DNA from: Thermoplasmatota archaeon
Lineage (GTDB): Archaea; Thermoplasmatota; Penumbrarchaeia; JASLWR01
DNA length: 64,000 nucleotides
Assembly: GCA_030740765.1 (NCBI GenBank)
Contig: JASLWR010000006.1
Location: forward strand, 1-64,000
Reading direction: 5' to 3'
The notes beneath the pieces are model-generated. The model searched no databases and was not told the DNA's origin. It saw only the letters and a program-made list of their open reading frames with translations. The position numbers and the translations under genes are program-made. How positions within the stretch are numbered: position 1 is the stretch's first letter; the number at the start of each line of letters is the position of its first letter. Shown in pieces: positions 5,222-39,631 of this stretch.

Positions 5222-5332
5222 AGGCCTGCTCCCGTTTCATTTGGGCATACCCGACATCGAATTAGAGATTCGATTAGGGTTAATAGAAACTGTTTCTATG
5301 TCACCTTGCGGCATACCTGACCTGCCCGCAAG
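5222..5332. repeat. Hairpin-rich repeat element, copy A
   Basis: A run of perfect short hairpins with no gene. The stem at 5256-5274 is ATCGAATT / GATTCGAT with an AGA loop. At 5283-5299 it is ATAGAAA / TTTCTAT with a CTG loop. At 5305-5332 it is CTTGCGG / CCGCAAG. The first hairpin and its flanks (CCGACAT before, ATTAGGGTT after) recur at 23054-23084 with altered but still complementary arms. See copies B, C and D. Boundaries are approximate. Confidence 0.6.
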
Positions 5333-5425
5333 TGGTTTGAAGGATGTAAGCTCGAGAGTATCAGGAATTTCATGTTATTCTCTTGTGAGCACCTATTTAT
5401 ACGATCCAATACAATATCTCTTTCA

Positions 5426-5731
5426 ATGACATCTCGAATCGTGCTTAACAATGACGACGATATCCAGCTGGAGATACTAAGCAACGCTGTACGGTCATGG
5501 GGTCAGAATCTGGATTGCTACGACAACTTCAATGGCGGAGATAGCGCATGGGAAGCGGTTTGCCGGGATCACCGGCGTATCGTCGAGGCGTTCCATGCGT
5601 TATCACCGGCTTTCCACCGGCGCCATCCCGAGATCAAGAACGCCTTTCCTGCCATCGAAAACAGTCCCATGGGTGAGGTAATTGACCATTTCTCTGTGGC
5701 TGTTCGAAGAGTAGCCGGGGAACGTCAGTAA
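5426..5731 (+). CDS. Hypothetical protein, 101 residues
   Basis: Unrecognised soluble protein of 101 residues, mostly helical in composition, with the sequence NNDDDIQLEILSNAVRSWGQ near the start and GDSAWEAVCRDHRRIVEAF in the middle. The ATG at 5426 has no ribosome binding site, but a TATA-like stretch (ctatttata, about 5392-5400) lies 26-34 bases upstream, which fits a leaderless transcript. The open frame extends upstream to 5372, but that part reads poorly. It stands alone between the MATE operon, a hairpin-rich repeat and the molybdenum hydroxylase operon. No motif suggests a function, and it may not be expressed. Confidence 0.4.
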   Translation: MTSRIVLNNDDDIQLEILSNAVRSWGQNLDCYDNFNGGDSAWEAVCRDHRRIVEAFHALSPAFHRRHPEIKNAFPAIENSPMGEVIDHFSVAVRRVAGERQ

Positions 5732-5918
5732 GTTCTAAATTGCGAATACCTCGATTACTATCTTAAAAACGATCTACCGTCTAAATGACTTCGCTTTTTC
5801 ATTTATAATTATTCTCGGAGAAAAAAGTTTAACAGGAATATTAAATATTTGACAATCCATGGGAAGGGGTATTTGAAAACGAATTTAATTCCCACCGAGG
5901 AAAGGCGGAGGAATAGAT

Positions 5919-6893
5919 TTGCATTATGATTTCAATCCAAAGTGGCATGCACCTACCACCGTAGAAGATGCTCTCAATATACTTGATAAAGATAAAACCG
6001 ACACCCCGGTAATCCTAGCTGGAGGTACGGACCTCACTATAAGGATAAGGGACGGTCAAGTAGTGCCACGTTCTATTCTCGATATCACAAGGATAGAAGG
6101 ACTCGATACGATCTCTCACAAGGAATGGATTTCTATAATTATATTACCGGGGATGCTCGAACTTAATGACTCTTTTCCAGAAGACCGTTCGTTCATCGTC
6201 ATAGGTGCCACTGCCACCATGGATGGAATTAGCCGCTCGGTACTTCTGAGATCATACTTACCGTCCGTGGTAAAGGCCGCCGGCGAGATCGGCTCTCCCC
6301 TCATCAGGAATGCGGCCACCATAGGCGGCAACGTGATGAATGCCTCACCAGCAGCCGACATGGCAACCATGCTCCTAGCCCAGGATACCAGAGCAGTCCT
6401 TTTAAGCCTAGGACCTGCGAGAATATTGCCGCTTAATGATCTATTTACTGGCGTTTGCAAGACCTGTATCGAGAGTAATGAATTACTTGCTTATTTCCTG
6501 CTGCGGCCTCCCTCTCCATACGTAGGAACGGGCTTTTATAAATTGAAACGGCGGGAAGCCCTGGCCCTTGCGGTGGTCAACTCCGGAGCTGTACTTCGAA
6601 GCGATGGGAAGAGGATCACCGACGCCTCGCTTTCAATCGGTGCGGTGGCTGTAACTCCTCTTTTAATAGACGAAATAAAGAAGATTTTACGGGGGAAAAA
6701 AATCGATGAAGCTGAAGCTTGTTTTAACGAAGTGGCTGAACTTGCAAGAGACCTGTCTAGACCTATTAGCGATGTGAGGGGTTCGGAGGAATACCGAAAG
6801 GAGATGGTAAGGGTTTGCGCTTTGAGATCACTAGGCGAGGCTTTCAATTCACTGAAAAGAGATGTCGCGCTAAATCACCGGGAGGTGGATTGA
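5919..6893 (+). CDS. Molybdenum hydroxylase, FAD-binding medium subunit
   Basis: A 324-residue FAD-binding subunit of the xanthine dehydrogenase / CO dehydrogenase family (CoxM-like), which passes electrons from the 2Fe-2S subunit to its acceptor. The FAD contacts are visible: I-L-A-G-G-T-D-L near residue 35 and T-I-G-G-N-V-x-N-A-S-P-A-A-D near residue 140. The CO-dehydrogenase-flavoprotein C-terminal domain follows (FYKLKRREALALAVVNSGA). Length is slightly above the usual 280-300. No extra four-cysteine 4Fe-4S loop of the hydroxybenzoyl-CoA reductase type is seen. The start is a TTG at 5919 behind GGAGG; the nearby ATG at 5926 is out of frame. First gene of a three-gene operon. Confidence 0.9.
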   Translation: MHYDFNPKWHAPTTVEDALNILDKDKTDTPVILAGGTDLTIRIRDGQVVPRSILDITRIEGLDTISHKEWISIIILPGMLELNDSFPEDRSFIVIGATATMDGISRSVLLRSYLPSVVKAAGEIGSPLIRNAATIGGNVMNASPAADMATMLLAQDTRAVLLSLGPARILPLNDLFTGVCKTCIESNELLAYFLLRPPSPYVGTGFYKLKRREALALAVVNSGAVLRSDGKRITDASLSIGAVAVTPLLIDEIKKILRGKKIDEAEACFNEVAELARDLSRPISDVRGSEEYRKEMVRVCALRSLGEAFNSLKRDVALNHREVD

Positions 6894-7394
6894 ATGGGCG
6901 CCGATGTCAAGAAGAACAGGTTGAAGGTCCAATACGTCCTCAATGGTGTTTTGATAAGTACCATGGTGGATACCGGGAGGAGGCTTATTGATCAATTGAG
7001 GGACACTCACGGGCTGGGATCGGTAAAGGAAGGATGTGGTACGGGGGAATGCGGGGCGTGTACGACTCTGGTTGATGGAAAGGGTATGTGTTCCTGCATA
7101 TTGCTGGTACCACAGATAAATGGAAAGGAGATAACGACCCTGGAAGGGATCACAACCGGAGAAATACTCCATCCCGTACAGGAAAAATTTATCGAGGAGG
7201 GAGCGGTGCAGTGCGGATACTGCACTCCGGGGATGATTATGAGCGCCGTTCAGCTCCTTTCGGACAATCCTGAACCAAGCGAAGACGAGATCCGGCTGGC
7301 CTTGTCGGGCAATCTCTGTCGATGCACCGGTTATTCAAAGATTATCAGAGCCGTACAGGCGGCAGCCAAAGCACTGTCAAAGGAGGGGAATTGA
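6894..7394 (+). CDS. Molybdenum hydroxylase, 2Fe-2S small subunit
   Basis: A 166-residue iron-sulfur subunit that relays electrons from the Mo site to FAD. The plant-ferredoxin-like cluster ligands are C-x4-C-x2-C with a later C (EGCGTGECGACTTLVDGKGMCSC), and the second, helical cluster domain has the two pairs CGYC and CRCTG (VQCGYCTPGMIMSA, GNLCRCTGY). Both clusters are therefore complete. The ATG directly follows the stop of the FAD subunit, with GGGAGGTGG upstream, so the genes are coupled. Confidence 0.93.
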   Translation: MGADVKKNRLKVQYVLNGVLISTMVDTGRRLIDQLRDTHGLGSVKEGCGTGECGACTTLVDGKGMCSCILLVPQINGKEITTLEGITTGEILHPVQEKFIEEGAVQCGYCTPGMIMSAVQLLSDNPEPSEDEIRLALSGNLCRCTGYSKIIRAVQAAAKALSKEGN

Positions 7395-7395
7395 C

Positions 7396-9753
7396 ATGAC
7401 TGGGGAAGAATTACTTGTGGTAGGCAAACCGCTCCGGCGGGTCGACGCTCTCGATAAAGTGACGGGCCAGGGTATCTATACCGGTGATCTAAAATTCCCC
7501 GATATGCTGCATGCCAAGGTAAAACGCAGCGAACACGCCCATGCGCGAATACTACGGATAGAAACCTCTGAAGCGGAGTCACTACCGGGTGTGATCCGAA
7601 TATTCACATCCAAGGATGTCCCCGGCGAGAATAACGTCGGTGTAATAGTACCCGATCAACCGGTATTCGCCGAGGATACCGTAAGGCATTACGGAGACGC
7701 CGTGGCAATGGTGGTGGCGGAATCGGAGGATCTCGTCAGAAAGGCTGTTGACCTAATAAAAGTGGACTACGATGTAATGCCGGGTGTATTCGACCCCGAA
7801 GAGGCAATGTTACCGAATAGTCCTCTTGTTCACCCGGACGGTAAATACGGTAATGAGGGAAACGTGCTATCGAAAATGGGATATGAAAAGGGTGACGTGG
7901 AAAAGGGTTTTCGGGATGCGGATATCATAGTAGAAGAAGAATACCGCCCCGGTTATCAGGAACATGCATTTATCGAAACTGAACGGTGTATTGCCACAAG
8001 CGACGGGCGAAATGTAACCGTATACGGCTCCCTGCAGTGTCCATTCTATGTGAGGGATGCTGTTGCTGGTGCCCTGGGAATTCCCCGGGCAAGGATACGA
8101 ATAATTCAAACGGCAATTGGCGGTGCCTTCGGGGGGAAGGAGGACGTGCCCTCGGAACTATGCGCGCGAGCCGCACTTGCGGCATATATTCTTAGAAGAC
8201 CCGTAAGAAAGATTAGGAGCAGGGAAGATTCAATTGTGATGCATACAAAAAGACATCCTATGATAATACGACACCGCCTGGGCGCGACCCGGGAGGGAGA
8301 ACTGGTAGCTGCCCGGGTCGAGATCATATCCGACCAGGGAGCATACTGTTCCGTTGGAAAATACGTTCAAAAACGGGCCATGGTACACGCTTGCGGCGCA
8401 TATGACATCCCGAACTCCAAGGTGGATACCAGCTTCGTATATACAAATAACATTCTCACCGGGGCTTTCAGAGGATTCGGAGGACCCCAGGTGGCAGTGG
8501 CCAGCGAACTGCAGATGGACGAACTGGCTCGACGTCTCGGCATGGACCCATTAAAGCTCCGTCTGAAAAATATTGTCGAGAAGGGCGGAATTACGGCAAA
8601 GGGTCAGAATCTAGATAACTGCGGGAAAGGTCTCAGAGAATGTATCGAAAAAGCCGCAAATGTAAGCCAATGGGATGAGAAAAGGGACGCATACGAAAAG
8701 TTCAATGAAAAAATGAAACACTCATCCACCGGGACCCTAAATATTCGTAAAGGGATCGGGATGTCTTCCATTATGTATGGAGTGGCTCTCGGAGGACCCA
8801 CACCCGATTCGGCCACCAGTACCTGCCAGATAACCGAGGACGGTTCGGTCATCATCACCACCGGGGGGACCGAGATGGGTCAGGGAGCGAAAACGGTACT
8901 ATCCCAGATCGCTGCCGAGGCGGTGGGAGTACCGCTACACTACGTCACGATACTTGATGCGGATACCTCCATTGTACAGAACAGCGGTCCATCCGTTGCT
9001 TCGAGGATTACACCGGTAATCGGCGAAGCGACGAGGAGGGGTGCAAAGGAGGCCGTAAGCGAGATAAGTAACTTGGCTTGCAAGCTACTTGGCGTCAACA
9101 GAGTCAGGTCGGTCATTGCTCCCGATGGAACTCCATTCAGTGTACCCGCAGATGCCATGGTCAAAAAGGCCGATATCGATAAATTTCCAGACAAAGTGGA
9201 CTATCACGAACTGGTAAGAAGCTGTTACGGTGAGGCAAAACTACTACTGGGTGTCGGATTCTGTTCTACTCCCACACTCCTTGAGAACGGTGAATACCGG
9301 GATTATTATACCTACTCTTTTGCATGCCACATTGCGGAGGTTGAGGTGGATATGGATACAGGCCGTGTAATGGTCAAGAAATTGACATGCGCCAATGACG
9401 TGGGTAAGGCAATAAATCCCCAGACAGTGGAAGGACAGATCGAGGGAGGGGCCGTACAGGGCATGGGCTATGGGCTCATGGAAGAACTCGTTACCCTGAA
9501 TGGTAGAATTCTAAACCCTTCCCTTGTGGATTATCACATCCCCACTTCCCTGGATGCACCGCAAATAACTCCCCTGATAATAGAAGAGCACGACTCCTTT
9601 GGCCCGTATGGTGCAAAGGGGATCGGCGAGCCGTCCCTTATACCCACACCCGCCGCCGTGTTGAATGCCGTGGGGCATGCCATAGGACTAGCAGTGAGGA
9701 AAACACCCGCGTCGCCCGAGAACGTCTGGAGGGCAATTCGCGATCATAGATGA
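7396..9753 (+). CDS. Molybdenum hydroxylase, large Mo-cofactor subunit
   Basis: A 785-residue catalytic subunit of the xanthine dehydrogenase family that binds molybdopterin cytosine dinucleotide and hydroxylates an aldehyde or N-heterocycle with water as oxygen donor. The N-terminal a/b hammerhead domain covers about residues 20-125. Cofactor-binding motifs are G-G-A-F-G-G-K-E-D (about 245), G-A-F-R-G-F-G-G-P-Q (about 355) and E-M-G-Q-G (about 493). The C-terminal G-A-K-G-I-G-E-P-S supplies the catalytic glutamate near residue 742. There is no active-site cysteine motif of the aerobic CO dehydrogenase (VAYRCSFR) type. It starts two bases after the 2Fe-2S subunit gene, behind GGAGG. No dedicated XdhC or MobA maturation gene lies nearby. 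The substrate cannot be read from the sequence; xanthine, nicotinate-like compounds and aldehydes are possible. Confidence 0.92.
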   Translation: MTGEELLVVGKPLRRVDALDKVTGQGIYTGDLKFPDMLHAKVKRSEHAHARILRIETSEAESLPGVIRIFTSKDVPGENNVGVIVPDQPVFAEDTVRHYGDAVAMVVAESEDLVRKAVDLIKVDYDVMPGVFDPEEAMLPNSPLVHPDGKYGNEGNVLSKMGYEKGDVEKGFRDADIIVEEEYRPGYQEHAFIETERCIATSDGRNVTVYGSLQCPFYVRDAVAGALGIPRARIRIIQTAIGGAFGGKEDVPSELCARAALAAYILRRPVRKIRSREDSIVMHTKRHPMIIRHRLGATREGELVAARVEIISDQGAYCSVGKYVQKRAMVHACGAYDIPNSKVDTSFVYTNNILTGAFRGFGGPQVAVASELQMDELARRLGMDPLKLRLKNIVEKGGITAKGQNLDNCGKGLRECIEKAANVSQWDEKRDAYEKFNEKMKHSSTGTLNIRKGIGMSSIMYGVALGGPTPDSATSTCQITEDGSVIITTGGTEMGQGAKTVLSQIAAEAVGVPLHYVTILDADTSIVQNSGPSVASRITPVIGEATRRGAKEAVSEISNLACKLLGVNRVRSVIAPDGTPFSVPADAMVKKADIDKFPDKVDYHELVRSCYGEAKLLLGVGFCSTPTLLENGEYRDYYTYSFACHIAEVEVDMDTGRVMVKKLTCANDVGKAINPQTVEGQIEGGAVQGMGYGLMEELVTLNGRILNPSLVDYHIPTSLDAPQITPLIIEEHDSFGPYGAKGIGEPSLIPTPAAVLNAVGHAIGLAVRKTPASPENVWRAIRDHR

Positions 9754-9975
9754 AAATCGCCAGGTGATCTCCCGGTAAAAACGGTAAAAAATAAAACAAC
9801 CGTGACCGTTTATACTGAATGGTAGGTCCGACCGGGACAATAGTTTCGAGGACGAAAAGCTAAGCAGGAGAATAGGTTTTCGAAACGAAAACTGCATGGA
9901 AATGACTTTATATACATGAATGTCATATGCACTTTGGATAACAGTAGCAGATGCATAACTTTGAGTTGATATAAA

Positions 9976-10167
9976 ATGCCTGAAAAAAAGGATGAGATTA
10001 CTAAGTCCCTCGATGAGCTTCGAGGCGAGGTGCGCGAGCTGAAGGCAATTGTGAGGGCATTGTATGCCATGGTTCTGGATGGCGGGATGGGTTTCGAAGA
10101 TGACGCACCAGGAGATGAATTTTCGGGTCTGCACCTGATGCTGAATGAAGATGATTTTTCTATGTGA
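9976..10167 (+). CDS. Small coiled-coil acidic protein
   Basis: A 63-residue unrecognised soluble protein. Residues 5-33 form a likely amphipathic helix or coiled coil (KKDEITKSLDELRGEVRELK), followed by an acidic, Met-rich tail ending DEFSGLHLMLNEDDFSM. A TATA-like TTTATATA lies about 60 bases upstream and there is no strong ribosome binding site. It sits alone after the Mo-hydroxylase operon. The regular heptad pattern and archaeal codon use make it likely to be real. No function can be assigned. Confidence 0.55.
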   Translation: MPEKKDEITKSLDELRGEVRELKAIVRALYAMVLDGGMGFEDDAPGDEFSGLHLMLNEDDFSM

Positions 10168-10211
10168 TAACAGTGTTAAGCACCACGTAAGGAAAAAAAT
10201 GTAGATAATCC

Positions 10212-10379
10212 TTAGCGGTCCTCATTCTCTTCCTGAATGTCTTTTGCAACCTGTTCCAGAAGCTCCTCGAAGGACCTGCTCTCGTATATCCTTATAGGTT
10301 TTCTCTGTGAATTCATGGTTGCTACCAGTTTATTGGCATCACGGACTATCTCGATCTCGTAAAGAAGTTGCTTTTGCAT
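10212..10379 (-). CDS. Small conserved-looking protein, 55 residues
   Basis: A 55-residue frame read from MQKQLLYEIEIVRDANKLVA through QRKPIRIYESRSFEELLEQV to EENEDR. The ATG follows GGTG by six bases, a good site for this genome. The pattern of short beta strands followed by a C-terminal amphipathic helix suggests a folded domain rather than a random frame. It is downstream of, and in the same direction as, the coiled-coil gene at 10419-10697, so they may share a transcript. No family is recognised. Confidence 0.6.
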   Translation of the reverse strand: MQKQLLYEIEIVRDANKLVATMNSQRKPIRIYESRSFEELLEQVAKDIQEENEDR

Positions 10380-10418
10380 TTTTAACACCTTTCTCTGCCA
10401 TTATCCATAATAATAAAA

Positions 10419-10697: not shown

Positions 10698-10789
10698 GGG
10701 ACCACCGCTCCAGCACCATAATGGCTCATATTATTATTGGATAAATAAAGGTTGTAGATAAATGTTTTCCCGAATCTTCCCTCGCGTAT

Positions 10790-11008: not shown

Positions 11009-11012
11009 TAGT

Positions 11013-12255: not shown

Positions 12256-12335
12256 GACATCTGATCAGTTTTCCATAAGTTCCAAAAACGCGATCGAAAT
12301 AAAACCATTGCGGCTCGTCCTTTGTCCGATTCGTC

Positions 12336-22988: not shown

Positions 22989-25900
22989 CTACTTGTCAGC
23001 ATCGATTCTCTTTACGATCCGCACCTTCTTCGGTGAAGGCGACCCTGCGGGCTCCCGACATAGAATCGGAGATTCTATTAGGGTTCGGTGAATTTCATTC
23101 CCCATCACCCGTAAGGAGCTTGCTCCTGAGGGAGAAGATGCATTTTCAATGCATCGGAGCGCAGTGGACTCACCACACAGGACAAGTGGTGACTTGTCAG
23201 GCATAGGCAAGGTCTTACGGATAACGGGAGGGGGGGGTACCGACGGCTTCGGTGATTGCATTTCCTCCTGAGGCGGGCCGTGAATCACAATACGGTTCTC
23301 CATCGGGGTGGTGTTTCCCCCCTCGGGTTCCACCGTGAAATCGGAGTATACCTCTACCGTATCCCCCAGTTCTCCTTCGGTGGAACCTGTCAGTAAACCA
23401 TCATCCGGGGATTTCTCTTCTTCAAGTACCGGATCGCTTCTCTTTTTCCTTCTGACAAAAAAGAACATACCAGCCGCCAGGGCAAGCACCAGTACTAAAC
23501 CGATGATACCCAGGACAATTTTAAGATTACTTGATGAGGTCGAAGTTTCTTCGAGAGGCTCTTTTTCGGTTGAATCAGCCATCACACGCACGTTAATATC
23601 GAGCAGGTGTTCTTTACTACCTTCCTTAAGAGTAATAACGAAAGACAAAGTCTTCACACCCGGGGAGATACCGTTTAGGGCGGTAACTTCCACTGCAATG
23701 GTTTCCATTTTATCCATCCGCAGAGTCACTGCTTCCTCAGGGATAATGGATATCTTGAGGTTGGATGGTACACTCTCTTGCACAAGATGGGCAGTTACAA
23801 GGGTATTGCCGATGTTTTCGATATCCACATAGAACGTTACCTTGCGCCCGACCCGGACGCTCATCTCATCGGAATCGATGGTCGGGTCGATGGAGATCAT
23901 CTCTTCCACAGTAACGTTTAGAGTGTACTTGCGGAGTAGGGATCCGTTGTTCTTGGACTGTACTCCTATAATGAATGAGTATGTACCTGCCTCCTTCTTT
24001 CCCGTCATGCTTAGTTGTAAAACCAGGAACTTTACGCCGTATGCGTCTATAGGTATGTTACTAGCCGGATAGTTTGTAAGCGCAGTGGTAAAACCCTCTG
24101 GTTTCTGAAAGGTCACTACAGCATAGCGGTCGTCCGAACTCCCACGGTTCTCCAATTGAATGACCAGGGAGGCGGATTTCGCTCCCGCCTTCAAGGTCGC
24201 GTTGACCACGGGAAGGTGAACAGCCATTTCGTCATATTCCTCAACCGTCACGATAAGGGGAACCGTCTCGACTTTCTTTCCACTGCTTGAAGTGGCGATC
24301 ATGGAAAAAATGAATTCATCCCTGGGAGGTGCCAGATCGTGGGTATAAATGGTAACCCTCGCAAAACCGCTGGCACCGGCCTCCAAGACGAGATAGCGGG
24401 GCTCGTAGGTGATGTTCCATCCCGACTTTTTTTCGGATAATATCAGGCTGACGTTATCCGGGCCGTTACCCTTGTTGATTAGCTCGAAGTTATACACAAT
24501 GGGCTCATGGGGCCTTCCAATGCTCTCGGTGTTATCCGGGATTATGGATATTCCGTATACATGAACTACGGTTACGTTGAATGAGACGCTCACCTCATCG
24601 TCGTTATGGGTCATTTTTATAGTGACGGTACACCGATCGCCAGCAAAAGACTCCCATGGAGCAAAAAGGTGTAAAGATACTCTTCCCCTCGAATACGAAT
24701 CGATGCCGATACGATTCATGTTGTAGATATCCAGAGCCGAGTCATTAACTACTATCCGGTATTCATCGGGCCTATCCTTCAATATCCATTCACCATTTTC
24801 TGCCAATAATTGTGCATCCCGGTCAATCTCAATTTCCTTCAGTTCGAAGGCATCCCTCAACTTCTTATCTGCGCGGCCCTCGATTAAATAATCTACGTAG
24901 TCCAGTGAAAGGCTGAACATATATTCCACGCTCATAATTGTGGCCCATTCGTCATCGGTACGCGAGGCCGATAGGTAATAAATCTCTTCATTATTGCCGG
25001 TATTGTTCAACCACAGAGAAAGGATGGTGGTATTTCCAGGCCCCGGTAAAATATTAATATCGTCCAAAAGGTCCATGGAGAAACCTGTGATCTTGTTTGC
25101 CGTAACATTCAGGAATACTGTTTCGCTTGCAGGAGTGGAATCGTTGGATATCGCCGATATGGTGATCCCGAACTTGTCGAGATAAAGGGCGTCCGGAGGG
25201 ACTGTCACATACACCTGCGTCACAAACTCCTTGTTCTTCTGGGGGATCTTCACAGGATTCTCCTTGAAAGATACCCATTGGGAATCCGGACCCCCGGGTA
25301 CAAGCGTGACCCAATCCATGGTGGCGCCACCGGTTTCCCGGTTGGTCAATAGCGTGACATCGAAGCTCGCCGGTTCTCCGGGGAGCGCCACTGAAGAGTT
25401 CTTCTGGGGGCCTGTGAGAAATAACCTCCTCTCTTCCACCATCACTGAAAAGGTCATTGTATTTGCATTTCGGGAAATTGCGGTGAAGTGAATCTCCGTT
25501 TTCCTGTCGGAATAGTCCGCGGAATTCGGTGTTGAGCTAGGCGTAAAACCTATCGAATCGCTGTACCAGGGATCATAACTATCCCCGTTGTTGTAATTGA
25601 CTAATATATCGAGTTCCTGGGTGCCGCTTGCCTCTTCGAGGTCCACTGCCTTGTGAGAAGGATCTGTGTTAATGTCGTTGGCATCCAACCGGGTGAATCC
25701 TCCTCCCAGATTCTCGTACATTACCGACTCGTCAATATGCCAGATCAGCAGCCCTCCATGGGGTAGATAGTAATCGAAACCGGTCCGGGCCCTGTTCTCG
25801 ATGAGAAAATACTGTTTGCCATCCGTATCAGGTATGATTATCTTGTAGATATCCGGGTAATCCTCGATGTTCCGTATGTATACCGTTTCCGTATTTGCCG

Positions 25901-26879
25901 ATATCTCAACGGGATCTACCCATCCCAGGAATACTTTTGACCAGGCACAGGGATGACCGGGAGTAACGCCGTTATTCAGGTGACCGCCAGCCCCCATGAG
26001 TCCCCATATACCAATCCCATTGGAATTATAATCAACATCGTAGAGGTCCGGTAGCCCTAGATCATGACCGAACTCGTGGCATATCACTCCTGTGATGTTC
26101 GAACCGAAATAACCGTCCTGGTCCTGAGTCTCGGGCACTATGCTTATGTCCCGTATGGTGGTCCCGTCATCGGTGGAAATGGCTTGACCCAACACGGCCC
26201 ACATCTGGTATTCTCCAACATGATTGGACCAGATATCGTTAGGAGAATCATCCCTTACATCAGACTCCTCCCCTGAACCGGCGTGAATGACAATGAACTT
26301 GCGATATTGGTTGAAATTAATATCGGGATCTGCCTTGATCACGGCGTCATTCACAAGGTTCACATTCCTTTTCGTCCTTTCGTCATTGGCCCCATAATAG
26401 CTCATATTGTTGTCCAGGGTATATATTTGCTCGGTAATATGAGTGTTAACTGTTAAGAGTCCATATGATACCTCATCGTAGTAAGTCTCCATTCTTCCAA
26501 GAATGGAATCAAAATAAGCCATATCGTGTTCAGGGAGCATTGTCCCGTTACCGGTTGTAGTTGAAACATAATCCGTCTGGAACTGTACACGAATGCATAA
26601 AAGGGAAAAGTCGGTCCTTGTGTCTGTACTCCGGCTTCTTTTGGGAATGTTTGATAGGGGTTCGAGGTCATTCACGACCTGATAAGCTGGATCAGAAGCG
26701 AGATTGTTCTTTTTATCGGGATGGGCCGGAAAATAATTTAACGCAGGAACTAAGGATTTTCCCCCTGACTTTGTTTTCTCCGCGCTATCTTCAAATCCAT
26801 TAGTCAACAGAATGGAGAACGGTGCAAGCATCATTGCAACTAATAACACGATAAGGGACCTTTTGAAAAAACGTAACAT
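22989..26879 (-). CDS. Secreted M6-type metalloprotease with NEW3-like domains and membrane anchor
   Basis: A 1296-residue surface protease. Residues 1-29 are a signal peptide. The catalytic domain (about 85-470) carries the zinc motif H-E-F-G-H-x2-G-L-P-D at about 267-277 (ICHEFGHDLGLPDLYD) and an M6 immune-inhibitor-A type context (GLMGAGGH, W-x-H-I-D-E-S). Several beta domains of the NEW3 / NPCBM-associated type follow (about 510-1105). A membrane helix at about 1118-1142 (VLGIIGLVLVLALAAGMFFF) and an acidic, then basic cytosolic tail end the protein. The last 75 residues are odd: they are encoded by hairpin-rich repeat copy B, which is open in this frame, and the original ending appears to resume as KKVRIVKRIDADK. 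Probably degrades external protein. Confidence 0.88.
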   Translation of the reverse strand: MLRFFKRSLIVLLVAMMLAPFSILLTNGFEDSAEKTKSGGKSLVPALNYFPAHPDKKNNLASDPAYQVVNDLEPLSNIPKRSRSTDTRTDFSLLCIRVQFQTDYVSTTTGNGTMLPEHDMAYFDSILGRMETYYDEVSYGLLTVNTHITEQIYTLDNNMSYYGANDERTKRNVNLVNDAVIKADPDINFNQYRKFIVIHAGSGEESDVRDDSPNDIWSNHVGEYQMWAVLGQAISTDDGTTIRDISIVPETQDQDGYFGSNITGVICHEFGHDLGLPDLYDVDYNSNGIGIWGLMGAGGHLNNGVTPGHPCAWSKVFLGWVDPVEISANTETVYIRNIEDYPDIYKIIIPDTDGKQYFLIENRARTGFDYYLPHGGLLIWHIDESVMYENLGGGFTRLDANDINTDPSHKAVDLEEASGTQELDILVNYNNGDSYDPWYSDSIGFTPSSTPNSADYSDRKTEIHFTAISRNANTMTFSVMVEERRLFLTGPQKNSSVALPGEPASFDVTLLTNRETGGATMDWVTLVPGGPDSQWVSFKENPVKIPQKNKEFVTQVYVTVPPDALYLDKFGITISAISNDSTPASETVFLNVTANKITGFSMDLLDDINILPGPGNTTILSLWLNNTGNNEEIYYLSASRTDDEWATIMSVEYMFSLSLDYVDYLIEGRADKKLRDAFELKEIEIDRDAQLLAENGEWILKDRPDEYRIVVNDSALDIYNMNRIGIDSYSRGRVSLHLFAPWESFAGDRCTVTIKMTHNDDEVSVSFNVTVVHVYGISIIPDNTESIGRPHEPIVYNFELINKGNGPDNVSLILSEKKSGWNITYEPRYLVLEAGASGFARVTIYTHDLAPPRDEFIFSMIATSSSGKKVETVPLIVTVEEYDEMAVHLPVVNATLKAGAKSASLVIQLENRGSSDDRYAVVTFQKPEGFTTALTNYPASNIPIDAYGVKFLVLQLSMTGKKEAGTYSFIIGVQSKNNGSLLRKYTLNVTVEEMISIDPTIDSDEMSVRVGRKVTFYVDIENIGNTLVTAHLVQESVPSNLKISIIPEEAVTLRMDKMETIAVEVTALNGISPGVKTLSFVITLKEGSKEHLLDINVRVMADSTEKEPLEETSTSSSNLKIVLGIIGLVLVLALAAGMFFFVRRKKRSDPVLEEEKSPDDGLLTGSTEGELGDTVEVYSDFTVEPEGGNTTPMENRIVIHGPPQEEMQSPKPSVPPPPVIRKTLPMPDKSPLVLCGESTALRCIENASSPSGASSLRVMGNEIHRTLIESPILCREPAGSPSPKKVRIVKRIDADK
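23049..23199. repeat. Hairpin-rich repeat element, copy B (inside coding sequence)
   Basis: Four perfect hairpins within the 3' end of the metalloprotease gene. At 23060-23078 the stem is ATAGAATC / GATTCTAT with a GGA loop. At 23114-23127 it is AGGAGC / GCTCCT. At 23137-23155 it is GATGCATT / AATGCATC with a TTC loop. At 23181-23198 it is GACAAGT / ACTTGTC. The first matches copy A, with compensating changes in the stem. The last, with flanks (20 bases, 23180-23199), recurs exactly in inverted orientation at 52187-52206 in the group II intron. CGGAGCGCAGTGG at 23155-23167 matches a motif shared by copies C and D. Confidence 0.6.
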
Positions 26880-28305: not shown

Positions 28306-28314
28306 TTACCCCAC

Positions 28315-31492: not shown

Positions 31493-31589
31493 AACTAACC
31501 GAAAAAACCCTTTTTAAGAAATTTATATGACGGTTTTCACTGGCATACTGGGAATGCCGGAATTATTTATCCGTAGGAAACAGCAGAAT

Positions 31590-31787
31590 GCCCGCTTCGC
31601 TCCGGTGACTTTTCAAGTCCCCTGCACCCTCGGGAGTACTCCCTACGGGTACACCCGTTTTTAAACGGGGGATGAATGCTCCTGTAGCCACACTTGGCGA
31701 AGGAGCAGCAATGCCGTAAGTATTGCGTAGTGAAACGGGCTTCTTTGGATGTTTCCGAGGATGATACCCACATTTTCAAATGTGGGT
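31590..31787. repeat. Hairpin-rich repeat element, copy C
   Basis: Non-coding stretch made of short hairpins. At 31607-31619 the stem is GACTT / AAGTC with a TTC loop. At 31632-31643 there is the palindrome GGGAGTACTCCC. At 31654-31669 the stem is CCCGTTT / AAACGGG, at 31708-31726 it is GCAAT / ATTGC, and at 31766-31787 it is ACCCACATTT / AAATGTGGGT. The inverted motif CGCTTCGCTCCGG (31593-31605) corresponds to CGGAGYGAAGYGG in copies B and D. GCAATGCC followed by GTATTGCG is shared on the same strand with copy D at about 39593-39615. The flanks 31493-31589 and 31788-31860 show nothing else. Confidence 0.55.
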
Positions 31788-32460: not shown

Positions 32461-32472
32461 GGGTGCGATCCA

Positions 32473-33072
32473 TTGACAATAACACAACCGGTTTTAGACA
32501 TATTATTGATATTTCCCGGCTGGCTATCCACCATGATGATCGCCATGCTTCCCATTTTCGAGCTGAGGGGTTCTATCCCGGTAGCCATTGGGGTTTTTAA
32601 GTTACCGTGGTGGGAATCGTATATATATTCTGTTATCGGAAACATGGTTCCCGTTCCGTTCATACTGCTGTTATCAGATCCGGTGGTTCGTTTTTTCAGT
32701 CGTTTCAAATACAGTAAAAAGTTTTTTGACTATATCCTTGAGAAAACCCGGAAGAGAACGGGAAAGAAGATCGAACGCTACGAGTCACTGGCCCTGGTGC
32801 TTTTCGTGGCAATACCCCTACCAGTGACGGGTGCATGGACCGGCGCCATAGCCGCCTGGCTATTTGAAATTGAATTCAAAAAGGCAATGGCATGCGTATT
32901 TTTGGGGGTATTGATAGCGGGAGCCGTGGTGACCGCTGCATATCACTCGGCCCGATTTCTGCTGGATTACTCGATGCTGGGCTTTGTAGGAACAATCATA
33001 CTCCTGATAATTTTTTACATCGTATATCGGCTGTTGATCAAACGGAACAATGGTATGGACCACGACAAATAA
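32473..33072 (+). CDS. Small multidrug export-type membrane protein (COG2426)
   Basis: A 199-residue integral membrane protein of the Sm_multidrug_ex family (PF06695 / COG2426). The family pattern is P-x-F-E-L-R-G-S-I-P-x-A (MLPIFELRGSIPVAIGVFKL, about residues 25-45) followed by G-N-M-V-P-V-P-F and a second half with A-I-P-L-P-V-T-G-A-W-T-G-A. Four to five membrane helices are predicted, with a basic loop (KTRKRTGKKIERYE-like) between halves. Start TTG at 32473 with GGGTG seven to eight bases upstream. The family name implies export, but substrates are not established. It lies downstream of AMMECR1. Confidence 0.88.
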   Translation: MTITQPVLDILLIFPGWLSTMMIAMLPIFELRGSIPVAIGVFKLPWWESYIYSVIGNMVPVPFILLLSDPVVRFFSRFKYSKKFFDYILEKTRKRTGKKIERYESLALVLFVAIPLPVTGAWTGAIAAWLFEIEFKKAMACVFLGVLIAGAVVTAAYHSARFLLDYSMLGFVGTIILLIIFYIVYRLLIKRNNGMDHDK

Positions 33073-33121
33073 GCGACAATATCTTAATATAACGAATAAC
33101 TTTATTACGAATGGTGTTGAA

Positions 33122-36100
33122 ATGAAAAAAATTAATGAATTTCCATTAACCCGCTTAATGTCAGTGTTGACGATCTTTATTTTCATCTTTCCCGGTATCT
33201 CCTTTTTTTTTGACACATCGGCAATTGCGGAAAATAGGGCAGTACCACCACTACCTCTACAAAACCCCGCTGGAGCTGTATTGGACAATAACGAGTATTT
33301 TGAATGGGTCGAATACTCAATCCGGGATGGTGATGACGACGGGAAGAACGATAGGGTGAAAATAAGCTTTGGCGTGCTGACCGATGGAATAACCGAGCGA
33401 GTGCGGGTCAACATGACCGTAAGCAACAATACTGGAGATATTGTAAAAAGAGACATGATGGAATTCAATGCTCGTAGGCGTGGGGCGAACCTAACGGACA
33501 CCTACTTCGAATACAAGGTAGGGACCACAGGCATATATAATTTCAATCTCACCCTTTCCGATATCGCCCATGACAAGGTGGAAGATCACAGCAACCGGAC
33601 CAACGTGAGCCTGTATTTCAACAGCCGCAGGTACTCCCTGTCACTGTCGGCCATCGTGGACGACTTCAACGGTAACGGAACGGCAAACGACGTTCTCGTA
33701 ATTTGCACCGATAAGGAATCTCTTCCGGTATTGAACGCAAGTATTCTCATAGATGGAATGTTAGAGGGATTGACCGATGAAAGAGGAAAGATTTACATTT
33801 ATAACCTCTCAGGACAACACCACGAGGCAGATGCTTTCTATTCGATTTATCACGCGAATACGGATTTCGATATCTCGCAACCCAGACCGGCCATGTTACT
33901 GGTCGATCCGGAACCGATGGATTTTGACGGGGACAGCTATCACGATGACCTGCGCGTATATGCGACTCTCCCTGACTCAAGCCCTGCAATAGGAGCAATC
34001 GTACAGGTTGGAGGATCGTACGTTGGTCTCATTGGAGTGGAAGGATGGGCGCAGTTCGAGAACATCAGCCAGGGGGACTATAGTGTCCGTGTTTCATATC
34101 AATTACCCCGAACGGCGATAGTTTCATACTCGTATTTTTATGCGGAAGGACCCCTGATCACCGAGTATGATATGAATTTTTATAGCATTTATGCCAGGAT
34201 CACAAATGCGGACGGCGGCAGTTCGAATAACGATCTTGAGATATACTGTGATGTGGATATCAGCGACGATGTCACAGCACAGGTACATATTAACGCAACG
34301 GTTTTTAACCAATGGGCCGAAAAGACAGCCTTTGCCAACACGAGTTATATGGCGACTGGTTGGGAGTACGATGACCAATATATATATATTTACAATCTCT
34401 CGGAAGGGTATCACACGGTGCGGTGCGAGCTTTTCGATCACAACTGGACCCTTCGGGACGTTCGAACGCAGACGGATGTGACGGTCTATGGTAATGACAC
34501 GCCCATTAACGTCGACAAGATGGTAGACGATCTCGACGGCGGGGGTTCCATGAACGACGTATTGTTCTATGCGCACCTGAAGTACCAAGATGAGGTCAAT
34601 GCTACTATAAAGATATTTTTCAGTTCGAACGATACCGAATTCAATTCCACCTTAACCGATAAGTGGGGTATGTCATGGGTCGACAATCTACCCGAGGGAG
34701 AATATTATTTCGAGGCATATCGGGCTCAAGGAGAACTAGCTGATTTTGGCAATTTCACCATTTACAACCGCATTCTGCAGACCTTTCAGACAATGGAACA
34801 TCTCAGGGATCAATCCGGGGACGGATTCCACGATGATTTTGTCATCTATGCTTACGACGATCAGGGACGTCCGGATATCTTGACCCAGGTGACAATATAT
34901 GAGAAAGAGAGTGGTTATATTATTAGACAGGGATGGACCAGGGGAAATTTACTGGGACCGGGATATTTCATCGCCGAGAATCTTTATACTGGTGATTACG
35001 TGTTTACGGCAGTCCACGTAGGGCCAGTGTTCGAGAAGAACATCTCATCGGGATTAATTCATTCCTACCATGATTGGCATTACTACTACATGCCTCTATT
35101 CATGGATGTAGAGGTCTTTGACGGGAATAACTCGGGGTATCGGGATGACGTTTTAATAAAAGTTAACGATTCGGAAGGCCAACCAATGAATCGAACTTCC
35201 GTAAGTATATCGAATAACTATATGTTCGAAGAAAAACTTACAAATGAAAACGGTACCGTGATCTTTTACAATCTACCTGGTGGAAATTATCGAACGTATT
35301 CGGAGAATTATCGCAACGATCCACCCATGAGGGGCGAATCCACCTTTATTTCAAATGGACCCGTTGCCATCAGATTCGGTTATTTCATTGATTATATTCG
35401 CTGTGGTGATGAAGATTTCCGGAGAAACGATATTTCAATAGCAGGCCGCGTTTATTCAAGCGCAGACGGCTGGGAGAACATCACCGTGCTTATGAACATG
35501 ACATATGAATCCAACGGAACGGTTCATTCTTTTGAAAATCGCACGTTTCTGGGTGATGGTTACAATTGGATGGTGTACAACCTTAAAGACGTTGGTTATG
35601 AGGAATATTCGATATCACTGATTCTTCTGGATGGCAATCACAGTCAAATAGCGATAATGAATTTTACAAATATAGTGGTATACGAGGCAAAACCGATACT
35701 GAATACTTACGCAATATTAATGGATGCCAAATGGCTATACCTTAGGGCCGCGTATGCCGGTGAAACCTTCTTCCAGTCCACGTTCGAGTTATACAATTCA
35801 ACAGGTCTCGTGAATCGTACCAGGAATGTCGAACGACAATATTTCGGAGATCTATATCCTGACGATTATCGATGGAACATAACAGAAGAATCCCTTAACC
35901 TGACCGATCACGGTGAGTTGTTGATCGATGGCAATTACACCTTTTCTTCTTATTTGCGAGATTATGATTTTGATGGTTACTATGATGATTTTTATTTGTC
36001 CATCAGGTACACGAATCGCACACGGGTAGATAACGCCGAAGTAAGGGTATACGATGCAAACGGCTTACTCCTTACCACTGGAAACACTTCCGGGGGTTTC

Positions 36101-39100
36101 GAACTTCTCAATCTATCCATGGGAAACTATACCTATATACTTACTCATAATCAGAAAACCCTTATGAGTGGCAGGTTCTATTCATACACAAACGGCTACC
36201 CGAACAAACCGCCAAGCGCCAACATTTCCCATCCCCGGAACGGAAGCACCTATCTCGTGGGCAATAACATATACTTCGATGCAGGGAATTCCACCGACAT
36301 GGATATGAATGATTCGATCTACTATACCTGGATCTCCGACGTGGACGGCCTCATGTCACACCGGGAGAACTTTAACACCAGTATTTTATCGATTGGAGTA
36401 CACAATATAACCCTCCACTGCGACGACGGCCACGATAACAATGTTTCCACTTCGATTATCGTACGCGTACTGCCTCTCAACAAACTTCCGCTGGCCGATG
36501 CCGGTCCTGACAAAAATTCTTATATTAATGAAGCTGTGGATTTCCTTGGCAGCGCCAGCGATCCCGACGGTGTCCTCGTACGGTTCGAATGGGATTTCGA
36601 GGGGGATGCGATATATGATTGGAGCAGTGACAAGAACGGCCCAGTAAACCACAGCTATGATTCACCCGGATTATATCGAGCGCGGTTCAGGGTAACTGAC
36701 GACAGGGGTGGTTTGGCAGTAGATAGCTGCAATGTGAGCATCATTTACAGTAACCGTCCACCTATGGCCGATGCCGGTGACAATAGATCGTTATTTACCG
36801 GGGAAAAATGTGTTCTTGACGGTACTAGCTCATACGATCCGGACGAAATATACGGCGATCAAATAGTGGCATTCAACTGGAGCTGCATAACCCATACGAT
36901 TGACCTGCAAGAGGAAAATTCCTCAGAACCGTATTTCTATCCTGGGGAGTCCGGTATTTATGAGTTCACCTTAACGGTGCTGGACTCTAACGGCCAGTGG
37001 TCCCAAGAGCTTGATAGAGTGTGGATCACCGTGGAGAACCGGATCAATTCAGCTCCTGTGGCTGAAGCGGGTTCACCCCGATCCAGTTTCATAGGTGATA
37101 TATTCATTCTTGACGGGAGCGGCAGTTTTGATCCCGACCCGGAAGGCTATATCGAAGCATATGAATGGAAATGCACTAACCACAGTGATATAGACCTTGC
37201 TAACGCCAGCAGCGCCAGGGCCGAGTTCACACCTGGAGAGGAAGGAATATACACATTCTCCCTGAGGGTGAAAGATAACAGGGAGGACTGGAGTGAATTC
37301 GATTTTGTGAATATCTCAGTAAGTGAGATAATAATTCCGAATTCAGCTCCTCGCGCAGTAGTTAGCCCTGTACAAGCTGCAAGAGTATTTGAACCAGTTA
37401 CCTTCTCGGCCGCAGGTAGTTTTGATCCCGACGACGACACGAACGGGAACGGGAAGATCGACGGGAGCGAGAAAGATAAGTTACAGTATCAATGGGATGT
37501 GGACGGAGACGGCAAGACGGATACCACTGGGAGAACGACAACGTACGTGTACAACTCCCCGGGAACCTTCATAGTAAATCTGACAGTCACCGATCCGGAA
37601 GGTCTCTCAGATGGCGAGGAATTCTCAATCGTGGTCAAACCCGAGAATCATCCCCCCGAAGCGAGTATTGACCAGGGTGGAAAAATTGTATTCAATCTTG
37701 ATACACAAAAAATTCTCTCGGCCTATTCCACCTATGATCCGCAGGAGGATAAGGACGAAAATGGAAAACTCTCGGCAGAGGAAATAATGGGGCTTAATTT
37801 CTTCTGGGACGCGGACATGAACCGGGACAGCGATGGGAACGGGATAAAAGACGATGATACGGACTGGACCGGTGTTGAATTTTCCCTGGATTATTCGGAG
37901 TACGGAACTTACGTCGTAGGCCTAAAAGTGCTTGACCATGAAGGATTGAGCGATGTGGATTCCCAGGAGATAGTGATCAATTCACCTCCATTGGACCTAG
38001 AGATATCCTTTTCTGCATCGACGAATATATACTACAAGGATCAGCCCTTGACATTCCAGGGCAGCTGTCACGACCCTGACGGAACGGACCGATATCTGAA
38101 ATTCATATGGGATATGGATTCCAACGGGGTGCCCGACATATACGGTGAAAGCGTGGAATTCTACTATGAAGAAGATGGCAGGAAGGTCGTCACTCTCACG
38201 GTGGAGGATCGTTACGGGGCCAGCGAAAAAATAACTGCAAGCATCGAGATACTCCCTCCCATCGAGACCATGGTGGAGACCCCTGAGATAATATCCCCGC
38301 GGGGTGGAAAGATTACGGGAACCGCCATCACGGTGGAGGCTTCGGTGGAGGATGATAGGATTCTCTGGCTGGAAGCGAGTATAACAGGTGAGAAATGGAA
38401 GAAGATGAGACGCCAATCCGGTGGAAACCTTTGGAAATACGATTTTGACATGGGATCCTCCAGAGTTATCAACATCTATGTGAGGGGAGTATTGAAAGAT
38501 TTCTCGGGAAGGACGGTTTATACCGATAGGGTATCTGTGACCGTTCGATTGGAGGACGAAGGGGAAGGGACGGACGAGAAGAATGAAAAGATTTGGGAAA
38601 AATACGATATCGAGTTGGGATTTGTAGCCGCCGTCCTGATACTTTTTATTGTATTGCTGCTGGTGGTGAGGGCTAGGAGGGCACCGGATTATTCTCGCAT
38701 GATAAAGGACATCTACAGTGAAAAGGCAAAACGAAGGAAGGCGGGAGAAACAAAACGAGAAAGGGAAACTTCTCAAGAGGCCGAGGACGAGGATGGATTT
38801 ACCGAGGTGGACGCTGAAGTTCTCGAAGAAGAGGAAGATACGGAGATGGCGATCGAGGATGGGGATGAAGAATACATGGAAAGGATGATCGAAGAATTGA
38901 AAGCCGGCGACATGATCCTCTCCCATTCGGGCACAAAAAGAACCGTGATCTCGGTTAATGGGCCGGAAATGCATGTAACAAGAACAATGAAGGACGGGAC
39001 CACCAAAAAGGAGAGAGCGAATAAATTGATGCTTCAGCTTCGCAGCGATGCCATCTCGGATATTATACTGGCGGAAGAGGGAGTGGAAAAGGAAGAATTG

Positions 39101-39316
39101 GAGGACGAAGAAGACGATATTGAGGAAATCGTGGAATCATTTGAAATTGATATAGTCTGTCCCCGATGTGAAAGTCTCTTTCCCGCGGTGAGTGAAGGTA
39201 AATGGCCCCTGGTTATTGACTGCCCGGAATGCGGAGCCAAGGGACGCATCATCGAGAAAATGATGGGGGATATTGTCAATGGTGAAAATCTCGATAACCC
39301 CTGCGGGCTCATCTGA
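33122..39316 (+). CDS. Giant surface protein with repeated D-D motifs, PKD domains and cytosolic zinc ribbon
   Basis: A 2064-residue exported protein, the largest here. A signal peptide (about residues 1-36) is followed by about ten beta modules of 90-110 residues, each starting with a calcium-loop-like motif (DFNGNGTANDVLV, DFDGDSYHDDLRV, DLDGGGSMNDVLF, DQSGDGFHDDFVI, DYDFDGYYDDFYL). Residues about 1020-1720 hold PKD-type domains (GSASDPDGVLVRFEWDF, FDPDDDTNGNGKIDG). After a membrane helix at about 1832-1852 come an acidic coiled stretch and a C-terminal zinc ribbon (CPRCESLFP, CPECGAKG, about 2020-2045). The D-x-N-G-x-G-x-x-N-D motifs probably bind calcium. The ATG at 33122 has GGTG five bases upstream. 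The outside-repeats and inside-ribbon layout suggests a receptor or an anchored assembly protein. Confidence 0.82.
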   Translation: MKKINEFPLTRLMSVLTIFIFIFPGISFFFDTSAIAENRAVPPLPLQNPAGAVLDNNEYFEWVEYSIRDGDDDGKNDRVKISFGVLTDGITERVRVNMTVSNNTGDIVKRDMMEFNARRRGANLTDTYFEYKVGTTGIYNFNLTLSDIAHDKVEDHSNRTNVSLYFNSRRYSLSLSAIVDDFNGNGTANDVLVICTDKESLPVLNASILIDGMLEGLTDERGKIYIYNLSGQHHEADAFYSIYHANTDFDISQPRPAMLLVDPEPMDFDGDSYHDDLRVYATLPDSSPAIGAIVQVGGSYVGLIGVEGWAQFENISQGDYSVRVSYQLPRTAIVSYSYFYAEGPLITEYDMNFYSIYARITNADGGSSNNDLEIYCDVDISDDVTAQVHINATVFNQWAEKTAFANTSYMATGWEYDDQYIYIYNLSEGYHTVRCELFDHNWTLRDVRTQTDVTVYGNDTPINVDKMVDDLDGGGSMNDVLFYAHLKYQDEVNATIKIFFSSNDTEFNSTLTDKWGMSWVDNLPEGEYYFEAYRAQGELADFGNFTIYNRILQTFQTMEHLRDQSGDGFHDDFVIYAYDDQGRPDILTQVTIYEKESGYIIRQGWTRGNLLGPGYFIAENLYTGDYVFTAVHVGPVFEKNISSGLIHSYHDWHYYYMPLFMDVEVFDGNNSGYRDDVLIKVNDSEGQPMNRTSVSISNNYMFEEKLTNENGTVIFYNLPGGNYRTYSENYRNDPPMRGESTFISNGPVAIRFGYFIDYIRCGDEDFRRNDISIAGRVYSSADGWENITVLMNMTYESNGTVHSFENRTFLGDGYNWMVYNLKDVGYEEYSISLILLDGNHSQIAIMNFTNIVVYEAKPILNTYAILMDAKWLYLRAAYAGETFFQSTFELYNSTGLVNRTRNVERQYFGDLYPDDYRWNITEESLNLTDHGELLIDGNYTFSSYLRDYDFDGYYDDFYLSIRYTNRTRVDNAEVRVYDANGLLLTTGNTSGGFELLNLSMGNYTYILTHNQKTLMSGRFYSYTNGYPNKPPSANISHPRNGSTYLVGNNIYFDAGNSTDMDMNDSIYYTWISDVDGLMSHRENFNTSILSIGVHNITLHCDDGHDNNVSTSIIVRVLPLNKLPLADAGPDKNSYINEAVDFLGSASDPDGVLVRFEWDFEGDAIYDWSSDKNGPVNHSYDSPGLYRARFRVTDDRGGLAVDSCNVSIIYSNRPPMADAGDNRSLFTGEKCVLDGTSSYDPDEIYGDQIVAFNWSCITHTIDLQEENSSEPYFYPGESGIYEFTLTVLDSNGQWSQELDRVWITVENRINSAPVAEAGSPRSSFIGDIFILDGSGSFDPDPEGYIEAYEWKCTNHSDIDLANASSARAEFTPGEEGIYTFSLRVKDNREDWSEFDFVNISVSEIIIPNSAPRAVVSPVQAARVFEPVTFSAAGSFDPDDDTNGNGKIDGSEKDKLQYQWDVDGDGKTDTTGRTTTYVYNSPGTFIVNLTVTDPEGLSDGEEFSIVVKPENHPPEASIDQGGKIVFNLDTQKILSAYSTYDPQEDKDENGKLSAEEIMGLNFFWDADMNRDSDGNGIKDDDTDWTGVEFSLDYSEYGTYVVGLKVLDHEGLSDVDSQEIVINSPPLDLEISFSASTNIYYKDQPLTFQGSCHDPDGTDRYLKFIWDMDSNGVPDIYGESVEFYYEEDGRKVVTLTVEDRYGASEKITASIEILPPIETMVETPEIISPRGGKITGTAITVEASVEDDRILWLEASITGEKWKKMRRQSGGNLWKYDFDMGSSRVINIYVRGVLKDFSGRTVYTDRVSVTVRLEDEGEGTDEKNEKIWEKYDIELGFVAAVLILFIVLLLVVRARRAPDYSRMIKDIYSEKAKRRKAGETKRERETSQEAEDEDGFTEVDAEVLEEEEDTEMAIEDGDEEYMERMIEELKAGDMILSHSGTKRTVISVNGPEMHVTRTMKDGTTKKERANKLMLQLRSDAISDIILAEEGVEKEELEDEEDDIEEIVESFEIDIVCPRCESLFPAVSEGKWPLVIDCPECGAKGRIIEKMMGDIVNGENLDNPCGLI

Positions 39317-39475
39317 CTTGCCCGCTCCTGATGTATGGACATACATCTGTATTTGCGGGGACGTTACCCCGCAAACAGGGTGCGGTCAAGTCTCGACAAA
39401 AAGTCGAGGTTTGCAGCTTGGTAATCCTCGACAAATCAGAGATTTGCCTGGCATGACAGGGCGTGACCTGTCATA
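39317..39475. repeat. Hairpin-rich repeat element, copy D, hairpin array
   Basis: Five perfect hairpins in tandem directly after a stop codon. 39330-39347: GATGTATG / CATACATC, loop GA. 39352-39375: TTTGCGGGG / CCCCGCAAA, loop ACGTTA. 39392-39408: CTCGAC / GTCGAG, loop AAAAA. 39432-39446: CAAATC / GATTTG, loop AGA. 39453-39474: ATGACAGG / CCTGTCAT, loop GCGTGA. The fourth shares the core AATYRGAGATT with copies A and B while its outer arms differ. None is followed by a clear T tract, so simple transcription termination does not explain five in a row. Confidence 0.65.
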
Positions 39476-39494
39476 GTTCGTGGAATCGCGGGCC

Positions 39495-39631
39495 AGTAGA
39501 TCTCCGGAGGAAATCGATGGCTCAGTTGAGCCCGAAGGGTGTCTCCGGAGTGAAATGGGAGCCTGTAGGTTTGCAAAGGAAATCGAAGGCTCAGCAATGC
39601 CCAAAGGGTATTGCGGAACGAAGTGGGAGCC
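39495..39631. repeat. Hairpin-rich repeat element, copy D, tandem 68-69-base units
   Basis: Two direct repeats, 39495-39563 (69 bases) and 39564-39631 (68 bases), about 70 percent identical by eye. Shared blocks are GGAAATCGAWGGCTCAG and YGAARTGGGAGCC. Near the same place each unit has a different eight-base palindrome, CTCCGGAG in the first and TTTGCAAA in the second. The second also holds a long hairpin, GCAATGCCC / GGGTATTGC. The frame is open across both units but has no start signal and ends in the DUF123 gene on the other strand, so I do not call it coding. Confidence 0.55.

Follow-up and report, generated by a model that had tools for sequence, protein, structure and literature searches.

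Dispersed families of short hairpin-forming elements are described from bacteria and organelles, and the family reported here lies in an archaeon: a window of 64,000 nucleotides (the whole stretch analysed, from contig JASLWR010000006.1, contig C125 of the host genome) from a metagenome-assembled genome (MAG) of Thermoplasmatota (3,585,932 bases, 158 contigs, 93.7% complete, 47% GC) contains several mosaics of hairpins. Among the described systems, the repetitive extragenic palindromes (REPs) tagged GTAG or CGTC, which include RPE-4 and RPE-6 of Rickettsia, are short hairpins with an unpaired tetranucleotide tag (here CGAC, or a GTAG-like sequence); like the archaeal elements they form dimers, vary in their stems and in some copies lie in frame within genes (PMC3733652). 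A few bacteria are reported to have REP dimers enclosed in larger palindromes, and the CGTC kind is without a dedicated transposase (PMC3733652). The host family works like these tagged REPs; it is unlike them in its archaeal host, in CGAC replacing CGTC, in feet on both sides of the stem, in obligatory composite frameworks with several nesting levels, and in that a REP-associated transposase (RAYT) was not found. Where CGTC REPs and RPE-6 have the tag CGTC (variants TGTC and CCTC) and a stem of 8-9 bp starting with AT, the CGAC kind shares the stem (8 bp, usually beginning with AT) and not the tag; since the tag differs and there is no RAYT, the family is filed as neither a GTAG nor a CGTC REP. 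We read the loci as copies of non-autonomous mobile palindromic double hairpins, probably recognised as one folded strand, and put the probability of this at roughly two in three, because the ends are fixed in unrelated flanks, nesting runs through several levels with empty paralogues, one copy lies in frame in a known domain, and the arms covary. The elements are real, abundant, well structured and in all likelihood mobile, their mobility being well supported.

The other related systems resemble the family each in a different respect. The mitochondrial double-hairpin elements of Allomyces, as described in PMC2800124, likewise have two adjacent stem-loops of tens of bases, keep structure better than sequence and occur in introns too, and they show no clear target duplication, as is true of the main element here; here also two adjacent stem-loops are dispersed as one unit, though the host DNA is an archaeal chromosome and not that of an organelle, and deep nesting and insertions into protein genes are added. 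The palindromic repeats of Volvox organelles insert into one another, as these do (PMC2670323), but there the terminal loop is constant and here the feet are, and AT-rich organelle DNA stands against an archaeal chromosome of 47% GC. Rickettsia RPE-1 (about 100-150 bp, tens of copies) also enters genes in frame and leaves open reading frames (ORFs) open; it is unlike the present family, which has few copies in genes, composite nesting and probably a different sequence. The bacterial interspersed mosaic elements (BIMEs) and REPINs of E. coli are, as here, non-autonomous mosaics of alternating palindromes, but BIMEs repeat a single REP type in tandem and do not set one hairpin inside another, and they are linked to a REP transposase. 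The open-access literature yielded no description of nested elements of this kind from archaea, and to that extent the remark in the original prediction, made from the sequence of the window, that it knew of no named archaeal element with this design still holds, although the bacterial and mitochondrial systems come close to it.

The basic unit is a double hairpin of 55-95 bp, two stem-loops joined by a short linker. The original prediction had singled out hairpins with the motif AATYRGAGATT and taken this for a constant loop core; the class is real, but it is the asymmetric unpaired feet (GAC/TA, GTAG/CGA, TGG/GC, GAT/GA) that are constant, while stems and loops vary. In this class, module A, GAC before the stem and TA after it are fixed, the 3-nt terminal loop changes (AGA, GGA, ACA, ATA, GCG and others), and the 8-bp stem, usually beginning with AT, is built from eight alternative sets of complementary arms. 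Most GTA/GA modules have GTAG, the final G pairing with the C of CGA, and an outer stem closes the module. The main simple element (about 93 nt) consists of A-TTGTCAA-TGG-TGMRAA-(inner hairpin)-GC-TTGACAA-T and, after a short linker, GCRGAATCG-(small hairpin)-CGATTCYGC-TGAAT or -TTCAT; a second type of unit is CGAC-hairpin-TAGGGCTA-hairpin-GTCG, and a third framework is CTTGAAAAGCCAAG...CTTGGCTTGAAAG plus GTGTGACACGCC..GGTGTGTC.

Hairpins were sampled in an unselected 440 kb of the host genome and in individual loci (L-numbered). An unbiased search for feet, defined as two stacked helices with an asymmetric internal loop between them, finds GAC/TA 37 times, GTA/GA 12 times, GAT/GA 6 times and TGG/GC 7 times in 508 kb, part of which was chosen for carrying module A, each against 0 in shuffles; in the unselected 440 kb the counts and shuffle means are 15 and 1.0, 9 and 0.7, 7 and 3.3, and 4 and 1.3, respectively, so that GAT/GA alone is weak there. 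Hairpins of any kind number 716 against 620 in shuffles; short hairpins are thus common by chance, and a class with TTTTCAA, also proposed in the original prediction, dissolves into this background (4 hairpins in 440 kb, 1-4 in shuffles). That the family as a whole consists of chance hairpins, or is an assembly artefact, is nevertheless hardly conceivable: shuffles and reversed controls have none of its specific feet and ends, and its copies lie on many contigs in differing flanks. The hairpins AATCAGAGATT and AATCGGAGATT, for example, number 6 and 3 in 440 kb and are absent from five shuffles.

Further copies in the genome, on whose existence the original prediction had staked its claim, are plentiful. 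The module A pattern CCCGACATNNNATNNNNGATNNNATTAGGG, with its arms left free, has 38 copies (reversed control 0), a covariance model of the core hairpin (R1) has 66 matches at E <= 0.1, and the left-end marker of the main element, TTGTCAATGGTGNNAA, has 40 exact copies (reversed control 0). Copies of the main element have the same two ends in unrelated flanks, and simple ones are present at at least 12 loci; 13 units of the CGAC-hairpin-TAGGGCTA-hairpin-GTCG type were found.

Covariation of the arms exceeds that of shuffled and slid controls, so that the second of the two refuting outcomes named in the original prediction did not occur either. Module A, aligned as 28 distinct sequences, has 96.1% of its cells paired, and 9 of the 11 pairs have changed on both sides; the covariation score (alignment A2) is 0.450 against 0.108 shuffled, with none of 500 shuffles as high, cells changed on both sides number 42 against 7.3, and slid controls are 27-45% paired. 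For the main element (alignment A1, 30 copies, inserts excluded) the corresponding values are 96.4% paired and 27 both-side cells against 8.9. Regular-expression searches imposed some pairing on the copies that they collected, the 38-match free-arm search did not; and the aligned copies share ancestry, so that these counts are not counts of independent events. Such strong covariation would also be expected of a structured RNA or a cis-regulatory element (terminator, mRNA stabiliser, small RNA) kept for a host function by selection on its stems at the RNA level, and on one strand of the main element G.T is tolerated above A.C; most copies, moreover, are intergenic. Nonetheless this explanation is unlikely: no preference for gene ends was found with a home-made, rough gene caller (tandem 17, divergent 6, convergent 4, against a background of 100:36:23), the composition is different at each locus, no match at the mosaics tested reaches the Rfam gathering score (a group II intron is the sole match in the window), and the structure was found in no relative searched.

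These searches covered genomes akin to the host at class level at the nearest; the closest relatives of its TFIIB protein are from Thermoplasmatota MAGs, with 81% identity at best. The module A pattern is absent from all 56 other genomes searched and, with AAT/ATT arms, has no match in IMG/VR or in 84,980 species genomes, a collection that may omit the host genome itself. R1 yields one weak single match, beside a tRNA and judged to be chance, in 193 other genomes of the phylum, and the main-element pattern one, coincidental and in coding sequence, in 11 class relatives; stretches of three class relatives hold few hairpin clusters, none with the host modules. A viral origin was considered and rejected, two pattern matches in IMG/VR being coincidences in coding sequence that lack the structure.

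Nesting of elements in elements is visible by comparison with simple copies, which give the empty state. The junction between TTGACAAT and GTTCGC is empty in about 12 simple copies; unit P, made of two hairpins, occupies it in L061, L083, L084, the window and others, and in L031/L078, L076 and L098 it holds a variant insert that has the second hairpin of unit P and a different first one. Likewise, an insert made up of CCTTTCGAGTAACGCCTCGAAAGG and GATGCAT..ATGCATC occupies the junction between GTCGAG and GTTTTCA in L078, L094 and L097, and in L098 this insert bears a further insert. For the third framework, L040 (5232) gives the empty state, whereas L010, L011, L031, L040 and L041 have a CGAC unit in it, and in L026, L054 and L186 one CGAC unit lies inside another with different arms. 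All insertion junctions among those compared are in unpaired stretches.

This nesting bears on template switching at quasi-palindromes during replication, by which hairpins would be built or repaired and covariation would arise because one arm serves as template for its partner, not through selection on folding. Perfect stems and compensatory changes are known products of this process (PMC8794818), and the arm classes of module A (AGA, CGA, ATA, TGC), which differ by up to three adjacent pairs, fit its multi-base jumps. It is local, however, and can neither carry the same ends and feet into dozens of unrelated flanks nor put one element inside another; half-changed copies (AGA/TCG in L010, C to T at 5250 of the window, A.G in five main-element copies) also make intermediate steps visible, which speaks against it. 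The snap-back form of the process, which the original prediction had put forward as an alternative, thus fails on its own for some 40 same-ended copies and for their nesting, and is improbable as the full explanation; as a helper that keeps the arms perfect it is a possibility to be held tentatively.

Some double hairpins have entered protein genes. The DUF4143 domain encoded in L034 is interrupted, in frame, by a simple copy of 31 codons; once the copy is removed, the domain match improves from 51.6 bits over profile positions 2-124 to 63.7 bits over 2-157; in L010 a composite is read in frame in an otherwise unassigned membrane-like protein. Together with the mosaic at 23043-23205 of the window (55 codons without a stop, in frame in the gene of a 1296-aa Peptidase_M6 protein, 22989-26879 on the minus strand, with 17 residues left to the C terminus), these are in-frame insertions of the Rickettsia type. 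At locus 4 the gene of a 2088-aa PKD protein (33050-39316 +) takes its final codons and its stop from the element. The reverse strand of the element has a common open frame (IFSGIGPSGPRFREHCQA...LTI) in L034 (11438-11530), L075 and L092; because this frame is kept in three loci, the element can become part of a protein without introducing a stop.

The features of the window are collected in Table 1. The four mosaics and the hairpins named in the original prediction are all present, and the mosaics fold better than their dinucleotide shuffles (z from -2.95 to -5.46; 0 of 200 shuffles fold as well); the hairpin at 39432, assigned there to the AATYRGAGATT class, has only the tip in common with it and is part of unit P.

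Table 1. Hairpin loci of the window and their parts (hp, hairpin; z, folding relative to shuffles).
Feature	Position	Strand	Description
Mosaic locus 1	5222..5345	.	Intergenic, from MatE-family gene (3750-5138 +) to gene 5919 +; z = -2.95
Module A in locus 1	5250..5279	+	CCC-GAC-ATCGAATT.AGA.GATTCGAT-TA-GGG; arm class CGA/TCG; one G.T pair; R1 E = 6.6e-8
Second, inverted module A in locus 1	5278..5305	-	GGT-TA-ATAGAAA..TTTCTAT-GTC-ACC; with 5250..5279 forms double-hairpin element CGAC-hp-TAGGGTTA-hp-GTCA, CC on either side
Mosaic locus 2	23043..23205	.	In frame in Peptidase_M6 protein gene; z = -4.60
Module A in locus 2	23054..23083	+	Arm class AGA/TCT
GTA/GA module in locus 2	23108..23132	+	CCC-GTA-AGGAG.CTTG.CTCCT-GA-GGG
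Hairpin in locus 2	23137..23155	.	GATGCATT.TTC.AATGCATC; TTTTCAA class of the original prediction, at chance level as a class
Hairpin in locus 2	23181..23198	.	GACAAGT.GGTG.ACTTGTC; inverted copy at 52188-52205
Mosaic locus 3	31576..31787	.	Divergent intergenic; nested within outer GGAAACA...TGTTTCC hairpin (31576-31756); z = -3.47 for 31590-31735
GTA/GA module in locus 3	31626..31650	-	ACCC-GTA-GGGAG..CTCCC-GA-GGGT
Locus 4, complete main double-hairpin element	39272..39653	+	ATTGTCAATGG...CCGCTGAAT; several more hairpin units nested inside
Unit P (two hairpins) in locus 4	39425..39475	+	Inserted in the main element, separating its two hairpins; simple copies empty at this junction
GTA/GA module in locus 4	39492..39521	+	Outer pairs GCCA/TGGC
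GTA/GA module in locus 4	39561..39590	+	Outer pairs GCCT/AGGC, compensated relative to 39492-39521
Fifth locus, simple main element	51871..51962	-	Missed by the original prediction; GTTGTCAA-TGG-TGCAAA...TTTGCA-GC-TTGACAAC + GCAAAATCG...CGATTTTGC; inserted within ORF-less group II intron; z = -6.72
Second-framework two-hairpin unit	52188..52231	+	...GTGTGACACGCC..GGTGTGTC; in the same group II intron

The fifth locus raises the question of spread through RNA by means of a reverse transcriptase from a group II intron. For the Allomyces elements RNA intermediates have been proposed because target duplications are lacking (PMC2800124), and the main element here is likewise without target-site duplication. 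ORF-less group II introns are indeed present (three matches: window 51515-52380, Rfam 51597-52378; C109, L212; C127, L214; one of them a contig-end fragment), and that of the window has itself been invaded by hairpin elements. But no RVT_1 reverse transcriptase was found in the nearly complete host genome and the introns encode none, which makes this route quite improbable; the mosaics tested match no group II intron model of Rfam, so that descent from such introns is not supported either.

If the elements move as folded DNA, a trans-acting enzyme would read the feet of one folded strand, the arms would be free to change provided they pair, and new copies would land preferentially in exposed single-stranded loops, yielding the nested mosaics. 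By analogy only, a single-strand (HUH/Y1-like) transposase may be the most likely type of enzyme, as single-strand and REP transposases bind folded strands by unpaired features (PMC8266576). The host genome has four Y1 transposase matches, including two intact IS200 transposase genes, and the elements might accordingly be remnants of IS200/IS605 elements, or of their miniature inverted-repeat transposable elements (MITEs), mobilised by the resident enzymes; Y1-type enzymes bind folded single-stranded DNA hairpins strand-specifically (PMC8266576), and duplication of the target is not expected of them. We consider this unlikely, since the element ends are absent around the four Y1 genes: none of the searched ends or modules occurs in their flanking DNA, where the IS ends resemble the usual IS200 type, and the Y1 loci are therefore rejected as autonomous partners. 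The Y1 proteins score 25.8 and 22.1 bits against the RAYT model NF047646 (cut-off 80) and lie above the IS200 cut-off. One IS200 transposase gene has at its 3' end a single hairpin with a weakly GTA/GA-like foot (TCG..TAC, L066 1391-1430), which may be fortuitous. Among the loci read there are neither terminal inverted repeats common to a resident autonomous element, as in classical MITEs, nor a larger element with these ends enclosing a transposase (the whole genome was not scanned for the latter). That the family is an undescribed class of archaeal mobile element, recognised by its small feet only, accepting any complementary arms and exchanging them freely, targeting the loops of other elements, growing into trees of nested hairpins and moved by an enzyme not yet described, is a speculative possibility, rather improbable in this full form.

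Several observations weigh against the mobile double-hairpin reading or weaken its support. On one strand of the main element, G.T mispairs exceed A.C mispairs by 25 to 6 counted by copy (three spurious rows excluded), and five G.T variants recur in at least two copies while no A.C variant does, which favours the reading; but counted as distinct events, the excess falls to about 12:6, and module A has none (2 vs 1). The excess is suggestive, not proof, of selection on one folded strand. The constancy of the feet beside jointly changing arms suggests that one-strand folding plays a part in the spread of the elements. There is no clear target-site duplication: the main element has none, and the CC/CC that surrounds the GAC/TA unit may be the element's own; the 'GG' considered as a duplication in nested copies is this CC in the other orientation and decides nothing. 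No mobility enzyme is tied to the elements, the Y1 proteins being of IS200 type with flanks free of the modules, and movement is deduced from paralogous copies, there being no second strain with an empty site at the same locus.

Three further features of the window stand apart. Two AT-rich hairpins between genes at 3255-3310 (AGTTGTACATACAACT, TAGTTGCACATACAACTA) lie outside the palindromic family; at 406-1827, a 312-nt sequence (approximate length) is repeated in tandem four to five times with 60-88% identity, overlapping a minus-strand ORF of 616 aa; and both halves of ATP-citrate lyase (Citrate_bind/ATP-grasp and CoA-ligase/citrate synthase domains) are encoded by neighbouring genes at 48317-51446 of this Thermoplasmatota genome.

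On the best reading, what is new here is that elements of the REP/RPE and mitochondrial double-hairpin kind occur in an archaeon, in a variant with nesting of unusual depth; the kind is thereby extended to Thermoplasmatota, and in-frame protein insertion by such elements is shown in an archaeon. Covarying stems are usually read as proof of a functional RNA; here the same signature accompanies mobile DNA, about 100 elements in one genome, and such loci should not be called riboswitch-like RNAs. The family also lends itself directly to experiments on the requirements of a mobility enzyme that reads structure.

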